Assembly (NCBI RefSeq): GCF_000247475.1
Contig: NZ_AHZC01000022.1
Location: forward strand, 1 to 64,000
Direction of reading: 5' to 3'
Source: Rhizobium sp. PDO1-076
GTDB lineage: Bacteria; Pseudomonadota; Alphaproteobacteria; Rhizobiales; Rhizobiaceae
DNA: 64,000 bases
The stretch's first letter is position 1; the number at the start of each line of letters is the position of its first letter. A program made the translations under genes and the position numbers. Positions 6,844-56,963 of this stretch are shown here, in pieces. A model generated the notes under the pieces. It was not told the DNA's origin and ran no database searches. It was given only the letters and a program-made list of their open reading frames with translations.

Positions 6844-7043
6844 CCCTTAAAAAATTGTTTACCACTTCCCTTGCGGCGTTGTTTACCAAGGATTTATCCA
6901 GCTTTATCGATCCCTAATTTGTTAAGGTGTTGGCAATACTTGGCGGTCAGTTTGGTCCTCACACGAAGGGTCTGGTAGACGAAAAAATCGCTACCGAATG
7001 GCATGATGCCGAACTGTCGTAGCCGGTAATTTCCAGTCCGGTA
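6844..7043 (+). promoter_or_regulatory. Upstream region of the first flagellin gene
   Basis: This is an AT-richer spacer than its surroundings and no gene is seen in it. A direct repeat TTGTTTACC occurs at 6855-6863 and 6879-6887, 24 bases apart, and GTTAAGG occurs near 6921. GCCGAAC near 7009 resembles the -10 half of a flagellar sigma-28 promoter, but the -35 half is not convincing. The transcription start therefore cannot be fixed by eye. Confidence 0.4.
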
Positions 7044-7074
7044 TGTCCCCATTAGTATCTTGTTTTAAGGGACA
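7044..7074 (+). promoter_or_regulatory. Leader hairpin pairing the Shine-Dalgarno of the first flagellin
   Basis: TGTCCC (7044-7049) pairs perfectly with GGGACA (7069-7074), enclosing 19 bases. The 3' arm contains the ribosome site AAGGGA for the ATG at 7081. The upstream CCGG-T-ATG block (7038-7045) is shared with the other flagellin leaders. Folding would hide the ribosome site, as expected for a translational switch. Confidence 0.55.
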
Positions 7075-7080
7075 AAAAAC

Positions 7081-7986
7081 ATGGCCAGCATTCTGACCAA
7101 CACCAACGCTATGTCTGCACTTTCGACGCTGCGTTCGATCTCCGCCAACATGGAATCCACCCAGAACGCGATCTCCACGGGCAAGAGCGTTGCATCTGCT
7201 TCGGACAACGCTGCGTACTGGTCGATCTCGACCACGATGAAGTCCGACAACATGGCTCTCGGCGCAGTCTCCGACGCGCTCGGCCTCGGCGCTGCCAAGG
7301 TTGACACGGCCTATGCCGGTATGGACGCCGCCATCGACGTCGTAACCGAAATCAAGGCCAAGCTCGTCGCCGCCAAGGAACAGGGTGTCGACAAGGAAAA
7401 GATCCAGGAAGAAATCTCGCAGCTTCAGGATCAGCTGACTTCGATCGCCGAATCCGCTTCGTTCAACGGCCAGAATTGGCTGGCGAATGAAGGTGGCGAC
7501 GTGACAGTCATCACCGGCTTTGTCCGCGCTGCCGACAACACGGTCACCGTCAAGTCGAGCACGATCACGCTGGACGACACCAACATGCTGTTCAGCGCTG
7601 ACGCAGCTGGCGTTATCGACGAAGCAACCGGCATCCTGGGTGCCAACGGCACGGCCTCGTCGTCGAGCATCGTCGGCTTCGAAATCGACAACGACACCGA
7701 CTCCGCTACGCTCGACAACCTGCTTACCGACGTTGAAACCGCTCTGACCAGCATGGTCAGCGCCGGCGCAACGCTCGGCTCGCTGTCCAGCCGTATCGAT
7801 CTGCAGTCCGAGTTTGCAGACAAGCTTTCCGACGCCATCGAAACCGGCATCGGCCGTCTCGTCGACGCCGACATGAACGAAGAATCGACCCGCCTCAAGG
7901 CCCTGCAGACCCAGCAGCAGCTGGCGATCCAGGCTCTGTCGATCGCCAACAGCGACTCGCAGAACATCCTGTCGCTCTTCCGTTAA
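7081..7986 (+). CDS. flaA: Flagellin FlaA
   Basis: A 301-residue flagellin, the major filament subunit. The N-terminal D0/D1 coiled coil (M-A-S-I-L-T-N-T-N-A-M, then 'S-D-N-A-A-Y-W-S-I-S-T') is conserved. So is the C-terminal D0/D1 segment, with 'D-A-D-M-N-E-E-S-T-R-L-K-A-L' and 'I-L-S-L-F-R' at the end. The central variable domain is short, as in Agrobacterium flagellins. FlaA is the principal flagellin in this family; the letters here follow order only. The gene is expected to be under the FtcR cascade, with FlaF/FlbT acting on the mRNA. Confidence 0.95.
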   Translation: MASILTNTNAMSALSTLRSISANMESTQNAISTGKSVASASDNAAYWSISTTMKSDNMALGAVSDALGLGAAKVDTAYAGMDAAIDVVTEIKAKLVAAKEQGVDKEKIQEEISQLQDQLTSIAESASFNGQNWLANEGGDVTVITGFVRAADNTVTVKSSTITLDDTNMLFSADAAGVIDEATGILGANGTASSSSIVGFEIDNDTDSATLDNLLTDVETALTSMVSAGATLGSLSSRIDLQSEFADKLSDAIETGIGRLVDADMNEESTRLKALQTQQQLAIQALSIANSDSQNILSLFR

Positions 7987-7998
7987 TCGCAAGAACGG

Positions 7999-8018
7999 GC
8001 CGGCCCGTGAGGGCCGGC
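7999..8018 (+). other. Perfect hairpin just after flaA
   Basis: GCCGGCCC (7999-8006) pairs with GGGCCGGC (8011-8018) around a GTGA tetraloop. It starts 12 bases after the stop codon. No T-run follows, so it is likely a 3' stability or RNase-processing hairpin. The true terminator lies at 8116-8146. Confidence 0.6.
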
Positions 8019-8150
8019 TAAACTATCCCGACGCCGATATGCCTTGGTGGCTGACCAGAGGCGCGCGAAGGGAAAGCTTCAACACCCGGAGGCTGAACCG
8101 GGTAAGTGGCTGCGGAGGTCGCGTCTGGAAACAGACGCGACCTTTTCGTT
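8019..8150 (+). ncRNA. Possible flaA 3'-UTR-derived small RNA (candidate)
   Basis: Between the flaA-proximal hairpin and the next terminator lie about 100 bases with no reading frame. They contain a second hairpin, ACCCGG (8084-8089) with CCGGGT (8098-8103), and then the strong terminator. A long structured 3' UTR of this shape can yield a small RNA. No promoter or conservation evidence was available, so this is only a candidate. Confidence 0.2.
8116..8150 (+). terminator. Intrinsic terminator of flaA
   Basis: A twelve-base-pair stem, AGGTCGCGTCTG (8116-8127) with CAGACGCGACCT (8132-8143), is capped by a GAAA tetraloop and followed by TTTTCGTTTT. It is one of the strongest terminators in the window. 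Confidence 0.9.
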
Positions 8151-8348
8151 TTATTAAGCATTTTTTGTTACGCGCGCGTGCACGCGAAGATTGCAAGTTT
8201 TTATAGCGATCGGGCATCTCTTCGAATTGCCTTAGGCCTTCGTTAACCAACATGCGTTTATCTGAACGCATCGAAGGGGCGAGCTAACCATTCAAATTCA
8301 GCCGGTTAGCAGGCATGACGCTGTGCGCTTCTACCGGTGATACCGGAA
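8151..8348 (+). promoter_or_regulatory. Upstream region of the second flagellin gene
   Basis: A non-coding spacer containing GTTAACC at 8242-8248 and CTAACCA near 8284. A small hairpin CCGGT-GAT-ACCGG occupies about 8334-8346. No convincing promoter pair was found by eye. Confidence 0.35.
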
Positions 8349-8377
8349 TGCCCTTCCTATTCAGCCATTAAGGGGCA
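8349..8377 (+). promoter_or_regulatory. Leader hairpin pairing the Shine-Dalgarno of the second flagellin
   Basis: TGCCC (8349-8353) pairs with GGGCA (8373-8377) around 19 bases. The stem can extend by TT/AA with one bulged G. The 3' arm overlaps the ribosome site AGGGG for the ATG at 8385. The geometry (19-base loop, arm ending seven bases before the start) matches flaA although the stem bases differ. Confidence 0.5.
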
Positions 8378-8384
8378 CACACCT

Positions 8385-9299
8385 ATGACGAGCATTTTGA
8401 CAAACGTCGCCGCAATGTCGGCACTCAGCACTCTGCGCAGCATCAGCAGCGGCATGGAAGAAACCCAGTCGCGCGTTTCCTCCGGCGAGCGCGTCGGCGA
8501 AGCGTCTGACAACGCAGCTTACTGGTCGATCGCAACGACCATGAAATCCGACAACATGGCCCTCTCGGCTGTCTCCGACGCCCTCGGCCTCGGCGCATCC
8601 AAGGTCGATACCGCCTATGCCGGTATGGACGCTGCCATCGACGTCGTGAAGGAAATCAAGGCCAAGCTGGTAACGGCGACTGAAGAAGGCGTCGACAAGG
8701 CCAAGGTTCAGGAAGAGATCTCGCAGCTGCAGGAACAGCTGATGTCGATCGCTGAATCGGCTGCATTCAGCGGCGAGAACTGGATTGCCGGCGACGCTGC
8801 AGACGTGACCGTCGTTTCCGGTTTCGTCCGTGATGCCAACAATGCGGTTTCCGTAAAGACCACCACCTACACGCTTGACGACGCAGCTGACGGCACGCTG
8901 CTGTTTGGTGGCGACGGCGCAGGCGGCATCGACGACACGACTGGTGTTCTCGGCACTGCCGGCGGCGCGACGATCGGTGTATCGGTATACGAACTCGACA
9001 TCAGCACGTTCGACGGCACCGAAATGGCTGAAGCCCTGACGCTTGTTGATGAAGCCCTGGCTTCCATGACGAGCGCTGCTGCGGAACTCGGTTCGATCTC
9101 CACCCGCATCGAACTGCAGGAAGATTTTGTCGGTTCTCTCTCGGACTCGCTCGATAGCGGTATCGGCCGTCTGGTCGACGCTGACATGAACGAAGAATCG
9201 ACCCGCCTGAAGGCTCTGCAGACCCAGCAGCAGCTGGCTATCCAGTCGCTCTCGATCGCCAATTCTTCTTCGGAAGTCATCCTCTCGCTCTTCCGTTAA
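8385..9299 (+). CDS. flaB: Flagellin FlaB
   Basis: A 304-residue flagellin starting M-T-S-I-L-T-N-V. This start is chosen because it matches the conserved flagellin N-terminus and follows AAGGGGCAC; an in-frame ATG 48 bases upstream would add a non-flagellin tail. The D0/D1 ends are nearly identical to FlaA, including 'D-A-D-M-N-E-E-S-T-R-L-K-A-L' and 'L-S-L-F-R'. The middle differs. It is a secondary filament subunit in relatives. Confidence 0.95.
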   Translation: MTSILTNVAAMSALSTLRSISSGMEETQSRVSSGERVGEASDNAAYWSIATTMKSDNMALSAVSDALGLGASKVDTAYAGMDAAIDVVKEIKAKLVTATEEGVDKAKVQEEISQLQEQLMSIAESAAFSGENWIAGDAADVTVVSGFVRDANNAVSVKTTTYTLDDAADGTLLFGGDGAGGIDDTTGVLGTAGGATIGVSVYELDISTFDGTEMAEALTLVDEALASMTSAAAELGSISTRIELQEDFVGSLSDSLDSGIGRLVDADMNEESTRLKALQTQQQLAIQSLSIANSSSEVILSLFR

Positions 9300-9337
9300 G
9301 CCTAGGCTTCCGGTCAATAGCAAGATCGCAATTTTGG

Positions 9338-9366
9338 AAAGCCGCCCTCCGGGGCGGCTTTTTTTT
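9338..9366 (+). terminator. Intrinsic terminator of flaB
   Basis: AAGCCGCCC (9339-9347) pairs with GGGCGGCTT (9352-9360) around TCCG, followed by six further T residues. Confidence 0.9.
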
Positions 9367-9381
9367 ACATCGTCAAATTGC

Positions 9382-9460
9382 GTTAACCATGCATTAACCA
9401 TGTCCGGTTTACATGAAGGTCAAGTAACGATGGATTAACCAAAACGAAGAAGCGGTTAAT
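9382..9460 (+). promoter_or_regulatory. Repeated (G)TTAAC motifs upstream of the third flagellin
   Basis: GTTAACC at 9382, ATTAACC at 9393 and ATTAACC at 9434 occur with GGTTAAT (the inverse orientation) at 9454. The first two are 11 bases apart, about one helical turn, which is the usual geometry for tandem OmpR-family binding sites. FtcR, encoded at 17499-18170, is of that family. The assignment is inference. Confidence 0.35.
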
Positions 9461-9498
9461 AGCATTAGGCAAGGCCATCGTTCCCGGACAGACCGGGA

Positions 9499-9529
9499 TG
9501 TCCCAGAAACTAGCCATTTTTAGGGGACG
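9499..9529 (+). promoter_or_regulatory. Leader hairpin pairing the Shine-Dalgarno of the third flagellin
   Basis: GTCCC (9500-9504) pairs with GGGAC (9524-9528), with a flanking T-G wobble and a 19-base loop. The 3' arm contains AGGGGAC, the ribosome site for the GTG at 9535. A second small hairpin, CCCGG-ACAGA-CCGGG, lies just upstream at 9483-9497. Confidence 0.5.
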
Positions 9530-9534
9530 CGCAA

Positions 9535-10470
9535 GTGACCAGCATTTTGACAAACAATGCAGCTATGACTGCACTCCAAACCCTTCGTACTATTGATTCC
9601 AGCATGGAAGACACACAGGCGCGCGTATCGTCTGGTCTCCGTGTCGGCACGGCGTCCGACAACGCCGCCTATTGGTCGATCGCGACCACCATGAGATCCG
9701 ATAATATGGCACTCTCGGCCGTGCAGGATGCACTCGGCCTCGGCGGCGCTAAGGTTGATACGTCCTACGCCGCGATGGAAAGCGCCATCGAAGTCGTCAA
9801 GGAAATCAAGGCCAAGGTCGTGGCGGCAACCGAAGAGGGTGTCGACAAGGCCAAGATCCAGGAAGAAATCGACCAGCTCCAGGAGCAGCTCCGTTCGGTC
9901 TCGCAATCTGCAAGCTTCAGCGGTGAGAACTGGATCGCCGGCGATGCCGGCACCAAGACGGTCGTATCTGGTTTTGTCCGCGATTCCACCGGCGCGGTAA
10001 CGGTCAAGACGACGGAATACATTCTCGATGATGCCGCTGATGGCAACCTGTTGTTCGGTGGCGACGGCGCCGGCAACATCGAGTACACAACGGGTATCCT
10101 TGGAACGGTCTCGGCATTCACGGGTGTCGGCGACGTGTCGGTTGATACGCTCGACCTCAATGCCTTCGATCCGGCAGACATGGCCGCCAATATGCAGGAA
10201 TCGCTGGATCTCATTGAAACTGCCTTGCAGAGCATGACGAGCGCGGCCGCTGAACTCGGCTCGATCTCGATGCGTATCGAACTCCAGGAGGACTTTGTCA
10301 GCACGCTCACCGACTCGATCGACTCCGGTATCGGTCGTCTCGTCGACGCCGACATGAACGAAGAATCGACCCGCCTGAAGGCCCTGCAGACCCAGCAGCA
10401 GCTCGCCATCCAGTCGCTGTCGATCGCCAACACCGCTTCCGAAAGCATCCTGACTCTCTTCCGTCAGTAA
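9535..10470 (+). CDS. flaC: Flagellin FlaC (GTG start)
   Basis: A 311-residue flagellin reading M-T-S-I-L-T-N-N-A-A-M from a GTG codon. No upstream ATG gives a better start, and GTG aligns exactly with the ATG of its paralogues. Conserved D0/D1 segments flank a central domain that shares 'L-L-F-G-G-D-G-A-G' with FlaB. FlaB and FlaC are the closest pair in the cluster. The weaker GTG start suggests a lower translation rate than flaA. Confidence 0.95.
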   Translation: MTSILTNNAAMTALQTLRTIDSSMEDTQARVSSGLRVGTASDNAAYWSIATTMRSDNMALSAVQDALGLGGAKVDTSYAAMESAIEVVKEIKAKVVAATEEGVDKAKIQEEIDQLQEQLRSVSQSASFSGENWIAGDAGTKTVVSGFVRDSTGAVTVKTTEYILDDAADGNLLFGGDGAGNIEYTTGILGTVSAFTGVGDVSVDTLDLNAFDPADMAANMQESLDLIETALQSMTSAAAELGSISMRIELQEDFVSTLTDSIDSGIGRLVDADMNEESTRLKALQTQQQLAIQSLSIANTASESILTLFRQ

Positions 10471-10529
10471 GGGCGCCTTGGCTAGGGGCGACTTCGTCCC
10501 GCGCTGACAAGTCGGATGTATTCGGTATG

Positions 10530-10560
10530 AACCGCACCCAGAAATGGGTGCGGTTTTTTT
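10530..10560 (+). terminator. Intrinsic terminator of flaC
   Basis: AACCGCACCCA (10530-10540) pairs with TGGGTGCGGTT (10545-10555) around a GAAA tetraloop, and a run of T residues follows. Confidence 0.92.
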
Positions 10561-10640
10561 GTGCCTTGCGTGAGGCTGGCCGAATATTGCGGTTTTGCGC
10601 CGAAGCGGATTTCCGACCTTGCCAAATCGCGGTCGCGTTT

Positions 10641-10761
10641 GTTAACTGGCACCGTTAACGATTTGTTAATGGTTACGGGGACCAGCGGTATGCTGGTCTG
10701 CATGATGCCCCTCCGTTGCCACCGGTATGCTTCCGGCCTTTTGGATTGACGATTAAGGGCA
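10641..10761 (+). promoter_or_regulatory. Upstream region and leader structures of the fourth flagellin
   Basis: GTTAACT (10641), GTTAACG (10654) and GTTAATG (10665) form a closely spaced direct repeat. A perfect hairpin GACCAGC/GCTGGTC lies at 10679-10697. The leader has the shared CCGGTATG block (10722-10729). The ribosome site AAGGGC (10755-10760) can pair with GCCTTT (10736-10741), one wobble, around 13 bases. Confidence 0.45.
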
Positions 10762-10766
10762 CCTCA

Positions 10767-11735
10767 ATGACCAGCATCATGACCAACGCTGCCGCAATGG
10801 CGGCCCTGCAGACTCTGCGCTCGATCGATACCAATCTGGAAACGACGCAAAGTCGTGTCTCCTCGGGTTATCGGGTCGAGACGGCGTCGGACAATGCCGG
10901 CTACTGGTCGATCGCTACCACGATGCGCTCCGACAACGCTGCATTGTCGACGGTCGCGGATGCGCTGGGTCTGGGTGCCGCAACGGTCGATACCGCTTAC
11001 ACGGCACTCGACAACGTCATCGAGGTCATGTCGTCGATCAAGGCCAAGCTGGTCGCCGCAAGCGAGCCGGGCGTCGACAAGGAAAAGATCAACGAGGAAA
11101 TGAAGCAGCTGAAGAACCAGCTGGTTTCAGCGGCACAGTCGGCATCATTCTCCGGTGAGAACTGGCTCTACAATACGAATGTCAACGAACTGGGCACCAA
11201 ACAGGTTGTCTCGTCGTTCGTGCGCGGCGCCGACGGCAGCGTTCAGGTCACCACGCTGGATTTCGATACCGCCGATTCCGTCCTGATCGATACGGAAGAT
11301 GCTAGCCGCGGCTTCCTGACCAAGGCGATCGACGCGGACACACTTGTTGCGGACCCGACGGGTACGGCGCGCGAATATTACCTTCTCGACGTCGGTTCCG
11401 TCGTGCCGCCGACGGGCGATCCGATCGAGATCGACAACGACACCGACACCGACACGTTGGATGACATGATCAGCGTTGTCGACGATCTGATCAGCCAGCT
11501 GACCGACGCTGCCGCAACGCTTGGCGCGATCACCAGCCGCATCGAGATGCAGGATAACTTCGTCTCCAACCTGATGGACGTGATCGACAAGGGTGTCGGT
11601 CGTCTGGTCGATGCCGACATGAACGAGGAATCGACCCGTCTGAAAGCCTTGCAGACCCAGCAGCAGCTCGGCATCCAGGCACTGTCGATCGCCAACAGCA
11701 GCGCAGAAAAGCTGCTCACCCTGTTCCGCGAGTAA
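10767..11735 (+). CDS. flaD: Flagellin FlaD
   Basis: A 322-residue flagellin starting M-T-S-I-M-T-N-A-A-A-M. This start follows AAGGGC and aligns with the paralogues; an in-frame ATG at 10716 adds 17 unrelated residues. It is the most divergent and longest of the four: it has an enlarged central domain and 'Q-L-G-I-Q-A-L' in place of 'Q-L-A-I-Q'. It keeps the 'D-A-D-M-N-E-E-S-T-R' block and ends L-L-T-L-F-R-E. It is probably a minor filament component. Confidence 0.94.
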   Translation: MTSIMTNAAAMAALQTLRSIDTNLETTQSRVSSGYRVETASDNAGYWSIATTMRSDNAALSTVADALGLGAATVDTAYTALDNVIEVMSSIKAKLVAASEPGVDKEKINEEMKQLKNQLVSAAQSASFSGENWLYNTNVNELGTKQVVSSFVRGADGSVQVTTLDFDTADSVLIDTEDASRGFLTKAIDADTLVADPTGTAREYYLLDVGSVVPPTGDPIEIDNDTDTDTLDDMISVVDDLISQLTDAAATLGAITSRIEMQDNFVSNLMDVIDKGVGRLVDADMNEESTRLKALQTQQQLGIQALSIANSSAEKLLTLFRE

Positions 11736-22099: not shown

Positions 22100-22447
22100 A
22101 TGTACCAGTTTTCATACGCCGAAATCATGGAAGATGGGGTGGCCGACGCGAAGGATCGCGAGCGTCAGGCCCTGGATCGGACAATTGATTTGCTGCGGGC
22201 GGCTGCACTGAAGGCCAGCTATTCGCGCGAGGCGATTGAAGCGCTTTACTACACACGACGGGTCTGGGTCCGCTTCATTGAGGATCTGCAGCATCCCGAA
22301 AATCAGCTGGCTGTCGAAGTTCGCGCCAATCTGATTTCCATCGCTATTTGGATTTTGAAGGAATGCGACCGGATCCGGAAGCGCCAGTCAGACAATTTCC
22401 AGGGCATCATAGACGTGACAACCATCATCAGGGATGGACTTAAATGA
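22100..22447 (+). CDS. flaF: Flagellar biosynthesis regulator FlaF
   Basis: A 115-residue helical cytoplasmic protein with the FlaF family features 'Y-A-E-I-M-E-D-G' near the start and '[12 protein letters not shown]' in the middle. In Caulobacter, FlaF promotes flagellin synthesis and secretion and opposes FlbT. It overlaps flbT by four bases (ATGA), so the two antagonists are made together. Confidence 0.94.
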
Positions 22448-22893
22448 AGAGCACTTTGCGCATCTCGCTCAAGTCGGGCGAACGGATCTTTATCAACGGA
22501 GCGGTTCTTCGCGTCGACCGCAAGGTTGCTTTGGAGTTCCTGAACGACGTGACTTTCCTCCTGGAAAATCACGTTCTCCAGCCCGACCAGGCCACCACGC
22601 CTCTGCGTCAGCTCTACTTCATTGCGCAGATGATGCTGATCAATCCGGAAGGCCGCGAACAGTCGATGGCGATGTTCCGCAAGTCGATCATCATGCTGCT
22701 GAACTGCTTTCAGAACGAAGAAATTCTGGCCGAGCTGAAGCGTGTCGATGCGATGGTTTCGTCCGGGCGAGCCTTTGACGCGCTGAAGGCAATACGCTCG
22801 CTTTATACGGTCGAGGACCGGATTTTGAGCAGCGATGAGATGAGCCCGGCAACGATCGAGCAGATTCGCAAGGAGATCGCGCCATGGCGGTAG
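22444..22893 (+). CDS. flbT: Flagellin mRNA regulator FlbT
   Basis: A 149-residue protein matching FlbT. It starts '[14 protein letters not shown]' (from residue 8) and continues with '[12 protein letters not shown]'. In Caulobacter, FlbT binds the leader of a flagellin mRNA near the start codon and lowers its stability and translation. The four flagellin leaders in this window share a Shine-Dalgarno-pairing fold, a plausible target. It overlaps flgD by ten bases. Confidence 0.95.
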
Positions 22894-56585: not shown

Positions 56586-56795
56586 ATGATCACCGGCACA
56601 GTAAAATGGTTTAATTCCACCAAGGGCTTCGGCTTCATCCAGCCTGACAATGGCGACGCTGACGCGTTCGTTCATATCTCTGCCGTCGAGCGCGCCGGAA
56701 TGCGCGAAATCGTCGAAGGCCAGAAGATCGGCTTCGACCTCGAGCGCGACAAGAAGTCGGGCAAGATGTCTGCTTGCAACCTGCAGGCTGTATAA
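56586..56795 (+). CDS. Cold-shock family protein CspA type
   Basis: A 69-residue single-domain nucleic-acid-binding protein. It has RNP1 'K-G-F-G-F-I-Q' and RNP2 'D-A-F-V-H-I-S-A-V', with N-terminal G-T-V-K-W-F-N. The start at 56586 follows AAAGGG and gives the family N-terminus; an in-frame ATG at 56571 would add five residues. It acts as an RNA chaperone. It is monocistronic with its own terminator. Confidence 0.95.
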   Translation: MITGTVKWFNSTKGFGFIQPDNGDADAFVHISAVERAGMREIVEGQKIGFDLERDKKSGKMSACNLQAV

Positions 56796-56859
56796 TCGGA
56801 AACTGCTTTCCTTTGACCGCGGATGTACCGGCACTGTCGAAAGCAAGTTTACCCAGGGA

Positions 56860-56886
56860 GGTCAGGCTGATTGCCTGGCCTTTTTT
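56860..56886 (+). terminator. Terminator of the cold-shock gene
   Basis: GGTCAGGC (56860-56867) pairs with GCCTGGCC (56873-56880), one wobble, around TGATT, and is followed by six T residues. Confidence 0.85.
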
Positions 56887-56963
56887 GTTGCAATCCATCG
56901 GATCGCCGTTAGGCCTATCTTGATGCTGGCTGGCAAGGCCGGGCCAAAACATCGGGAGAAGCC

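Follow-up and report, generated by a model that had tools for sequence, protein, structure and literature searches.

Flagellin leaders and translational control

In Caulobacter, FlbT is reported to act through the 5' untranslated region (UTR) to repress flagellin translation as long as the hook-basal body is unfinished, and secretion of one flagellin, assisted by FlaF, is reported to lift the repression (PMC3930126, PMC4347634, PMC9812332, PMC7591256). Excerpts concerning Brucella melitensis describe a FlbT that acts positively and is needed for flagellin production (PMC8781033, PMC9812332). The leaders considered here belong to four consecutive flagellin genes, flaA, flaB, flaC, and flaD, in the first 64,000 nucleotides (nt) of contig NZ_AHZC01000022.1 from Rhizobium sp. 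PDO1-076 (the window), a locus that also encodes FlaF and FlbT, as the initial annotation had recognised (Table 1). Brucella belongs to the same order as this organism. Flagellin translation is also controlled through the leader by a different protein, CsrA, which binds GGA motifs, as at Bacillus hag. Campylobacter flaA is reported to be another CsrA-controlled case.

In flaA, flaB, and flaC the coding region is preceded by a conserved, structured mRNA leader of about 60-70 nt. It comprises a first hairpin (H1; NCCGG-loop-CCGGN'), a single A, and a second hairpin (H2; UGUCCC-loop-GGGRCA) that covers the Shine-Dalgarno sequence (SD). H1, which lies just upstream of the SD stem and was missed in the initial annotation, uses as its 3' strand the CCGG of a CCGG-N-ATG block. 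The minimum free energy (MFE) fold of all three leaders, taken from 6 nt before H1 to the start codon, is H1 followed by H2. We consider it rather probable that this leader is a translational gate in which H2 mostly closes the SD and the FlbT lineage is the likeliest opener or closer.

An SD-pairing arm had been proposed for all four leaders, with a loop of exactly 19 bases in the first three. The arm and loop stand for flaA, flaB, and flaC; the stems are as described in flaA and flaC, while that of flaB extends beyond the claimed core to seven pairs, one of them G.U. In flaD the arm is degenerate, with one G.U pair and one base in common with the H1 stem, and the family covariance model described below gives no match to this leader in its own genome at E<=1. 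The flaD leader is off-register because its second CCGG comes after the ATG; its CCGG-N-ATG block (10722-10729) holds the 5' arm of H1. Another flagellin of this genome, a 570-aa protein on contig C354 (start 1492; leader L005), lacks both the CCGG block and the H2 arm. The GTG start of flaC recurs in close relatives, among them L008-L013 and L017-L019; flaA, flaB, and flaD differ.

Conservation of the two hairpins

A scan with FlaA yielded 74 loci, which together with the window and one further locus of its genome provided 260 start sites. A start-peptide filter and removal of own-genome duplicates reduced these to 245, and then to 236 distinct leaders (150-nt stretches). The CCGG block precedes [AUC]UG in 213 of the 236 Rhizobiaceae-type leaders; the other 23 belong mostly to flaD-like genes, plus one long flagellin of the same genome. 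Six of six bases of the H2 arm pair with the SD region in 198 of the 213 leaders (best position, G.U allowed) and five of six in the remaining 15, against 28 leaders with full pairing when the arm-to-start region was shuffled by dinucleotides and 6.5 by mononucleotides. With Watson-Crick pairs only, the count is 85 of 213 against 5.0 and 0.8, respectively. Pairing between the arm and the SD, as originally noted, therefore exceeds chance. H1 is recurrent too, its CCGG/CCGG stem being present in 207 of 213 leaders (16 expected from shuffles) with loops of 4-16 nt; in 210 of the 213 the base linking the two hairpins is A.

The exact 19-nt H2 loop is not constrained: across the 198 leaders the loop spans 11-27 nt and measures exactly 19 nt in 38. 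The stem differences within the window had looked like compensatory change. They are weak evidence of it, because the commonest combination among relatives, UGUCCC/GGGGCA (86 of 213), itself contains a U.G pair. A loop motif, GUA-NNN-YGU (for example 7055-7063 in the window), occurs in 26 of 153 leaders from five families where 1.7 are expected, and may be a second contact for a ligand. AUG follows CCGGN in 210 of the 213 leaders, a set selected for [AUC]UG. An upstream open reading frame (ORF) starting at this AUG was considered and rejected: the AUG stands in all three frames with respect to the main start (100/66/44), and in 69 of the 210 the reading frame ends before reaching that start.

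The covariance model was built from 79 Rhizobiaceae-type leaders (207 of the 213 used, with an 88% similarity filter). In its own genome it recovers flaA, flaB, and flaC and no other convincing site; of eight weak matches (E 4.6e-4 to 0.76), the five inspected (L088-L092) do not precede a clear gene start. Within the genus, 21 of 22 genomes, own included, match at E 5.7e-8 or better, the exception (G018) being 76% complete. An order-wide scan matched 70 of 199 genomes at E<=0.01, and many of the weaker matches probably arise by chance. For sampling independent of the model, 120 flagellin upstream regions were fetched, hand-chosen among the matches listed; a start was assigned in 94, and the 26 regions with no start by N-terminal pattern were left out. 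Of these 94 leaders, 76 precede a flagellin with the window-type N-terminus and 18 one of the MPV/MPI type.

Of 64 window-type leaders unseen in training, 46 contain the element by the model at E<=0.01. They are 45 of the 63 from other families, with matches in 10 families, and that of G199, a 1.5-Mb genome of the Rhizobiaceae. It finds the element in none of the 18 MPV/MPI-type leaders at E<=10. Both flagellin types are present in G154, G178, G184, G210, and G215. Counting the window's own family, the element is found ahead of flagellin genes in 11 families, all of one order. A class-wide search matched 16 of 240 genomes, own included, at E<=0.001, with no other match better than E 3.4e-5; the element is claimed for the order only. 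Leaders L144, L146, and L147 have a longer H1 (AUACCGG/CCGGUAU) and a lost H2 arm, a natural H2 loss.

Co-adapted arms and covariation

In one lineage both arms of H2 have changed together. The H2 arms of genus g62 (family f18) are UGUCUUUC/GAAAGACG or UGUUUCC/GGAAACG, or close to either, and the other f18 genome sampled, G166, retains UGUCCC/GGGACA. When arms were swapped between leaders, the 11 f18 leaders paired at -8.35 kcal/mol with their own arms against -4.91 with those of other families, and the own arm ranked first of 151 in five of nine g62 leaders. Over all 151 leaders the own arms gave -9.04 against -8.00 for permuted arms, in a test that ignores relatedness. H1 also varies: G199 has it rewritten as GCUGC-UUAGA-GCAGC, and three leaders from two f23 genomes have U-A in place of C-G as the second H1 pair.

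Covariation was assessed with a custom-written, tree-aware test in the style of R-scape, applied to 154 of 311 leaders after an 86% filter, with leaders having fewer than 72 nt upstream left out; the arm-swap test used 151 of these 154. The outer H1 pair, which occurs as AU, GC, GU, CG, and UA, covaries at E 0.002 over 13 pairs. In 60 leaders outside the training set, including poor model matches up to E 10, the same pair ranks first, at E 0.0004 over 13 pairs and 0.033 over all pairs. The model sets the g62 3' arms out of register in this 60-leader test, which therefore has lower power. The check for covariation across leaders suggested in the initial annotation thus came out positive for the outer H1 pair only.

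Accessibility of the ribosome site

Accessibility, the predicted probability that the SD is unpaired, has a median of 0.17 in 235 Rhizobiaceae-type leaders and 0.20 in the 76 order leaders of the window's flagellin type. The three comparison sets have higher medians: 0.37 for the 18 MPV/MPI leaders, 0.44 for 35 flagellin leaders from outside the order, and 0.34 for a further 27 ORFs on the window's plus strand (start codons unverified). P values for these comparisons are too small because the sequences are related; the direction is consistent. Together with the conservation of the pairing and the co-adapted arms, predicted accessibility lends good support to the original proposal of an SD-hiding structure common to flagellin leaders. 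Folding energy was rejected as evidence, the z values of single leaders not being unusual, and for this reason the case rests on comparison.

FlbT lineages and flagellin leaders

Of the 52 genomes of the order that bear flagellin genes and were examined, 51 encode FlbT; the remaining one is 86% complete. A tree of 40 hand-chosen FlbT stretches and the window's own divides into two deep clades (split support 1.000), with 25 members in clade A, which includes the FlbT of the window, and 16 in clade B. All 25 clade-A proteins come from genomes with the window's flagellin type; six of the genomes giving clade B alone had no flagellin start assigned. Four genomes (G178, G210, G215, and G231, both copies fetched) have one FlbT of each clade, and in G154, G178, G184, G210, and G215 no more than about 22 kb separate the clade-A FlbT from a leader-bearing flagellin. 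From this co-segregation, clade-A FlbT is a plausible ligand of the leader.

Outside the order, 40 regions from the class were hand-chosen among the matches listed and five were left out. Seven of the flagellin leaders (L314, L316, L320, L323, L325, L326, and L333) contain GCAAAANGC hairpins after a TTGC box, which we take to be sigma-54-like. Their genomes account for seven of the eight FlbTs in one subclade (support 0.957). A second flagellin leader in three of the seven genomes (L313, L318, and L334) has no GCAAAANGC hairpins, and the GCAAAANGC leaders have no Rfam match. A bolder reading, possible though less likely than not, is that FlbT and the flagellin leaders have evolved together as RNA-protein pairs, each clade with hairpins of its own: clade A with NCCGG-H1 and the SD-hiding H2, clade B with flagellins that lack such a leader, and one subclade outside the order with GCAAAANGC hairpins after a TTGC box at the presumed mRNA start. 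If so, FlbT would recognise its target messages by these leaders, and might act positively in one clade and negatively in another.

The fljK 5' UTR of Caulobacter crescentus resembles the leaders of the window as an alphaproteobacterial flagellin leader accompanied by FlbT and FlaF, with translational control reported in the excerpts available. The difference lies in the seven genomes outside the order, which carry GCAAAANGC hairpins and FlbTs outside clade A, in a comparison that did not include the Caulobacter leader by name. Brucella melitensis fliC is alike in that FlbT is required for flagellin and unlike in that FlbT is described, in the excerpts, as positive; its leader was likewise not compared by name.

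Promoter-side sequence and organisation of the locus

In 254 of 264 leaders, where 9.4 would be expected, a box reading GCATGATGC or close to it occurs no more than 35 nt ahead of H1; in 241 of them it stands 12 or 13 nt before the first CCGG. This box is probably a core promoter element; so read, it would place the transcript start just before H1. The literature passages found contain no mapped transcript start for any rhizobial flagellin gene. Sites of the form TTAA-N7-TTAA, which are CtrA-like, lie upstream of flaC and flaD at 9383-9397 and 10655-10669. CtrA binding or motifs are reported for flagellin promoters of S. meliloti in the excerpts available (PMC4433202, PMC3616915).

Beyond the four flagellin genes, the segment 19534-23345 encodes FlgK, a second flagellin-domain protein, FlaF, FlbT, and FlgD, as assigned with Pfam.

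Table 1. Flagellin genes, leader elements, upstream boxes, and FlaF/FlbT genes of the window.
Feature	Position	Strand	Remarks
flaA, flagellin	7081..7986	+	PF00669 + PF00700
flaB, flagellin	8385..9299	+	
flaC, flagellin	9535..10470	+	GTG start
flaD, flagellin	10767..11735	+	
flaA GCATGATGC box	7001..7009	+	probable core promoter element
flaB GCATGACGC box	8313..8321	+	
flaC GCATTAGGC box	9462..9470	+	
flaD GCATGATGC box	10700..10708	+	
flaA H1	7022..7042	+	GCCGG 7022-7026 / CCGGT 7038-7042; outermost pair covaries
flaA H2	7044..7074	+	TGTCCC 7044-7049 / GGGACA 7069-7074; loop 19; covers SD; model match E 1.7e-17
flaA H2 loop motif GTATCTTGT	within 7044..7074	+	
flaB H1	8333..8347	+	ACCGG 8333-8337 / CCGGA 8343-8347; outer A.A unpaired
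flaB H2	8349..8377	+	TGCCCTT 8349-8355 / AGGGGCA 8371-8377; core TGCCC 8349-8353 / GGGCA 8373-8377, loop 19; model match E 1.8e-10
flaC H1	9483..9497	+	CCCGG 9483-9487 / CCGGG 9493-9497
flaC H2	9500..9528	+	GTCCC 9500-9504 / GGGAC 9524-9528; loop 19; model match E 1.9e-7
flaD H1	10722..10736	+	CCGG 10722-10725 / CCGG 10733-10736; TATG in its loop
flaD H2, degenerate	10736..10760	+	GCCTTT 10736-10741 / AAGGGC 10755-10760; no model match
FlaF	22100..22447	+	PF07309 E 1.6e-32
FlbT, clade A	22444..22893	+	PF07378 E 1.8e-42; candidate trans-acting partner

Proposed mechanism and alternative explanations

We propose that H1 would lie near the 5' end of the mRNA and be joined by the single A to H2, which has the SD as its 3' strand. 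H2 would hold the ribosome site mostly closed, giving low flagellin translation by default. A factor reading H1, the linker, or the H2 loop would open the site or keep it closed (positive or negative regulation), and the likeliest such factor would be the FlbT lineage inherited with these flagellins. In rhizobia and many of their relatives, the proteins of the main flagellum are probably made only when something opens H2.

Several observations weigh against this gate. Single-leader folding energies are unremarkable (z -1.12, -1.04, -0.92, and -0.65 for the four full leaders), and when 30 nt of coding sequence are added, the flaA MFE fold retains H2 and loses H1. Within the window, predicted SD accessibility is clearly low in flaA (0.09) and flaB (0.19) only; in flaC (0.30) and flaD (0.45) the SD is not clearly closed by this measure. 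None of the H2 pairs reaches significance on its own in the tree-aware test (best E 0.10), and the outer H1 pair itself falls to E 0.37 when all column pairs of the 154 leaders are considered, with two non-structural pairs ranking above it; this fifth pair is formed in only 113 of 207 leaders. In f36 and f23 the arms of other families pair better on average than the own arms. In G104, G140, and G171 of the Rhizobiaceae, one flagellin leader each retains H1 and an SD and has lost the H2 arm. A switch thrown by FlbT or FlaF, as proposed in the initial annotation, is a correlation. FlbT occurs just as regularly with flagellins that have no such leader (MPV/MPI), and also where the H2 arm is lost; G231 has a clade-A FlbT, yet its one leader read shows no element; and the association between FlbT and the leader may be explained by joint inheritance of the whole flagellar system. 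The literature yielded no mapped transcript start and no results of probing or binding experiments.

Loss of the arm beside a kept SD, which the initial annotation had named as refuting its proposal, is thus seen in some relatives: these three genomes and, by weak own pairing, f36 and part of f23. The same observations mark H1 as the more deeply kept part of the leader. Gating by H2 is not universal, because H2 has decayed in relatives that retain H1.

This pattern bears on the main rival, in which H1 is an mRNA stability element, protecting the message against 5'-end-dependent decay by its position near that end, and translation depends little on H2. If the GCATGATGC box is a -10 region, the spacing rule from -10 region to transcript start would begin H1 about 6-8 nt from the 5' end; H1 is also the hairpin with significant covariation and is retained where H2 has decayed. 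Such an element leaves unexplained both the low SD accessibility and the tracking of the SD sequence by the H2 arm in g62. We regard it as possible, if doubtful as the whole explanation, and it could hold alongside the translational gate. Inherited similarity, whereby flagellin paralogs duplicate with their 5' regions and no RNA structure is selected, would account for a block common to paralogs, for ordinary single-leader energies, and for H2 covariation that is not individually significant. The covarying outer H1 pair, the rewritten arms that are still complementary, and the presence of the element in 10 other families despite diverged loops make this the least credible of the alternatives.

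Protein-binding or promoter sites in the DNA, with the RNA fold incidental, would fit the 12-13 nt between the GCATGATGC box and H1 in 241 of 264 leaders and the palindromic nature of ACCGGT and CCGG. DNA operators rarely tolerate variable spacing, however, and here the loops vary (11-27 nt in H2, 4-16 nt in H1), the 3' half is tied to the SD, the two arms in f18 have changed in concert, and G.U pairs are frequent, as in the 86 of 213 leaders with UGUCCC/GGGGCA. A DNA-level element is accordingly unlikely. RNA thermometers use a short stem over the SD, and an H2 that melts with temperature would need no protein. That stem strength differs among families, that no Rfam thermometer family matches the leaders, and that an adjacent hairpin and, in a subset, a loop motif suggest a ligand make a thermometer very improbable.

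Relation to described RNA families

The flg-Rhizobiales RNA motif (RF01736), placed before flagellar operons, is likewise a candidate structured RNA of Rhizobiales. It differs in being a 141-position model, and identity with it was rejected: it has no match at the gathering score in the window and none in the genome, and was found in three of 60 genomes, once above the cut-off. No Rfam family matches the leaders at the gathering score, relaxed thresholds giving only unrelated families. The literature search returned no title or abstract start describing this leader; most subscription journals lie outside that search, so novelty is unproven. An SD-hiding leader for flagellin control is of a known kind, while the family, its breadth, and the link to an FlbT clade appear new. 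The element is a candidate for a new Rfam family. Compact, and with natural variants in which either hairpin is rewritten or H2 is lost, it lends itself to binding and probing experiments and to reporter assays. The sole Rfam match in the window is the alphaproteobacterial small RNA (sRNA) ar35 at 56755-56889, scoring 45.7 against a gathering score of 45.

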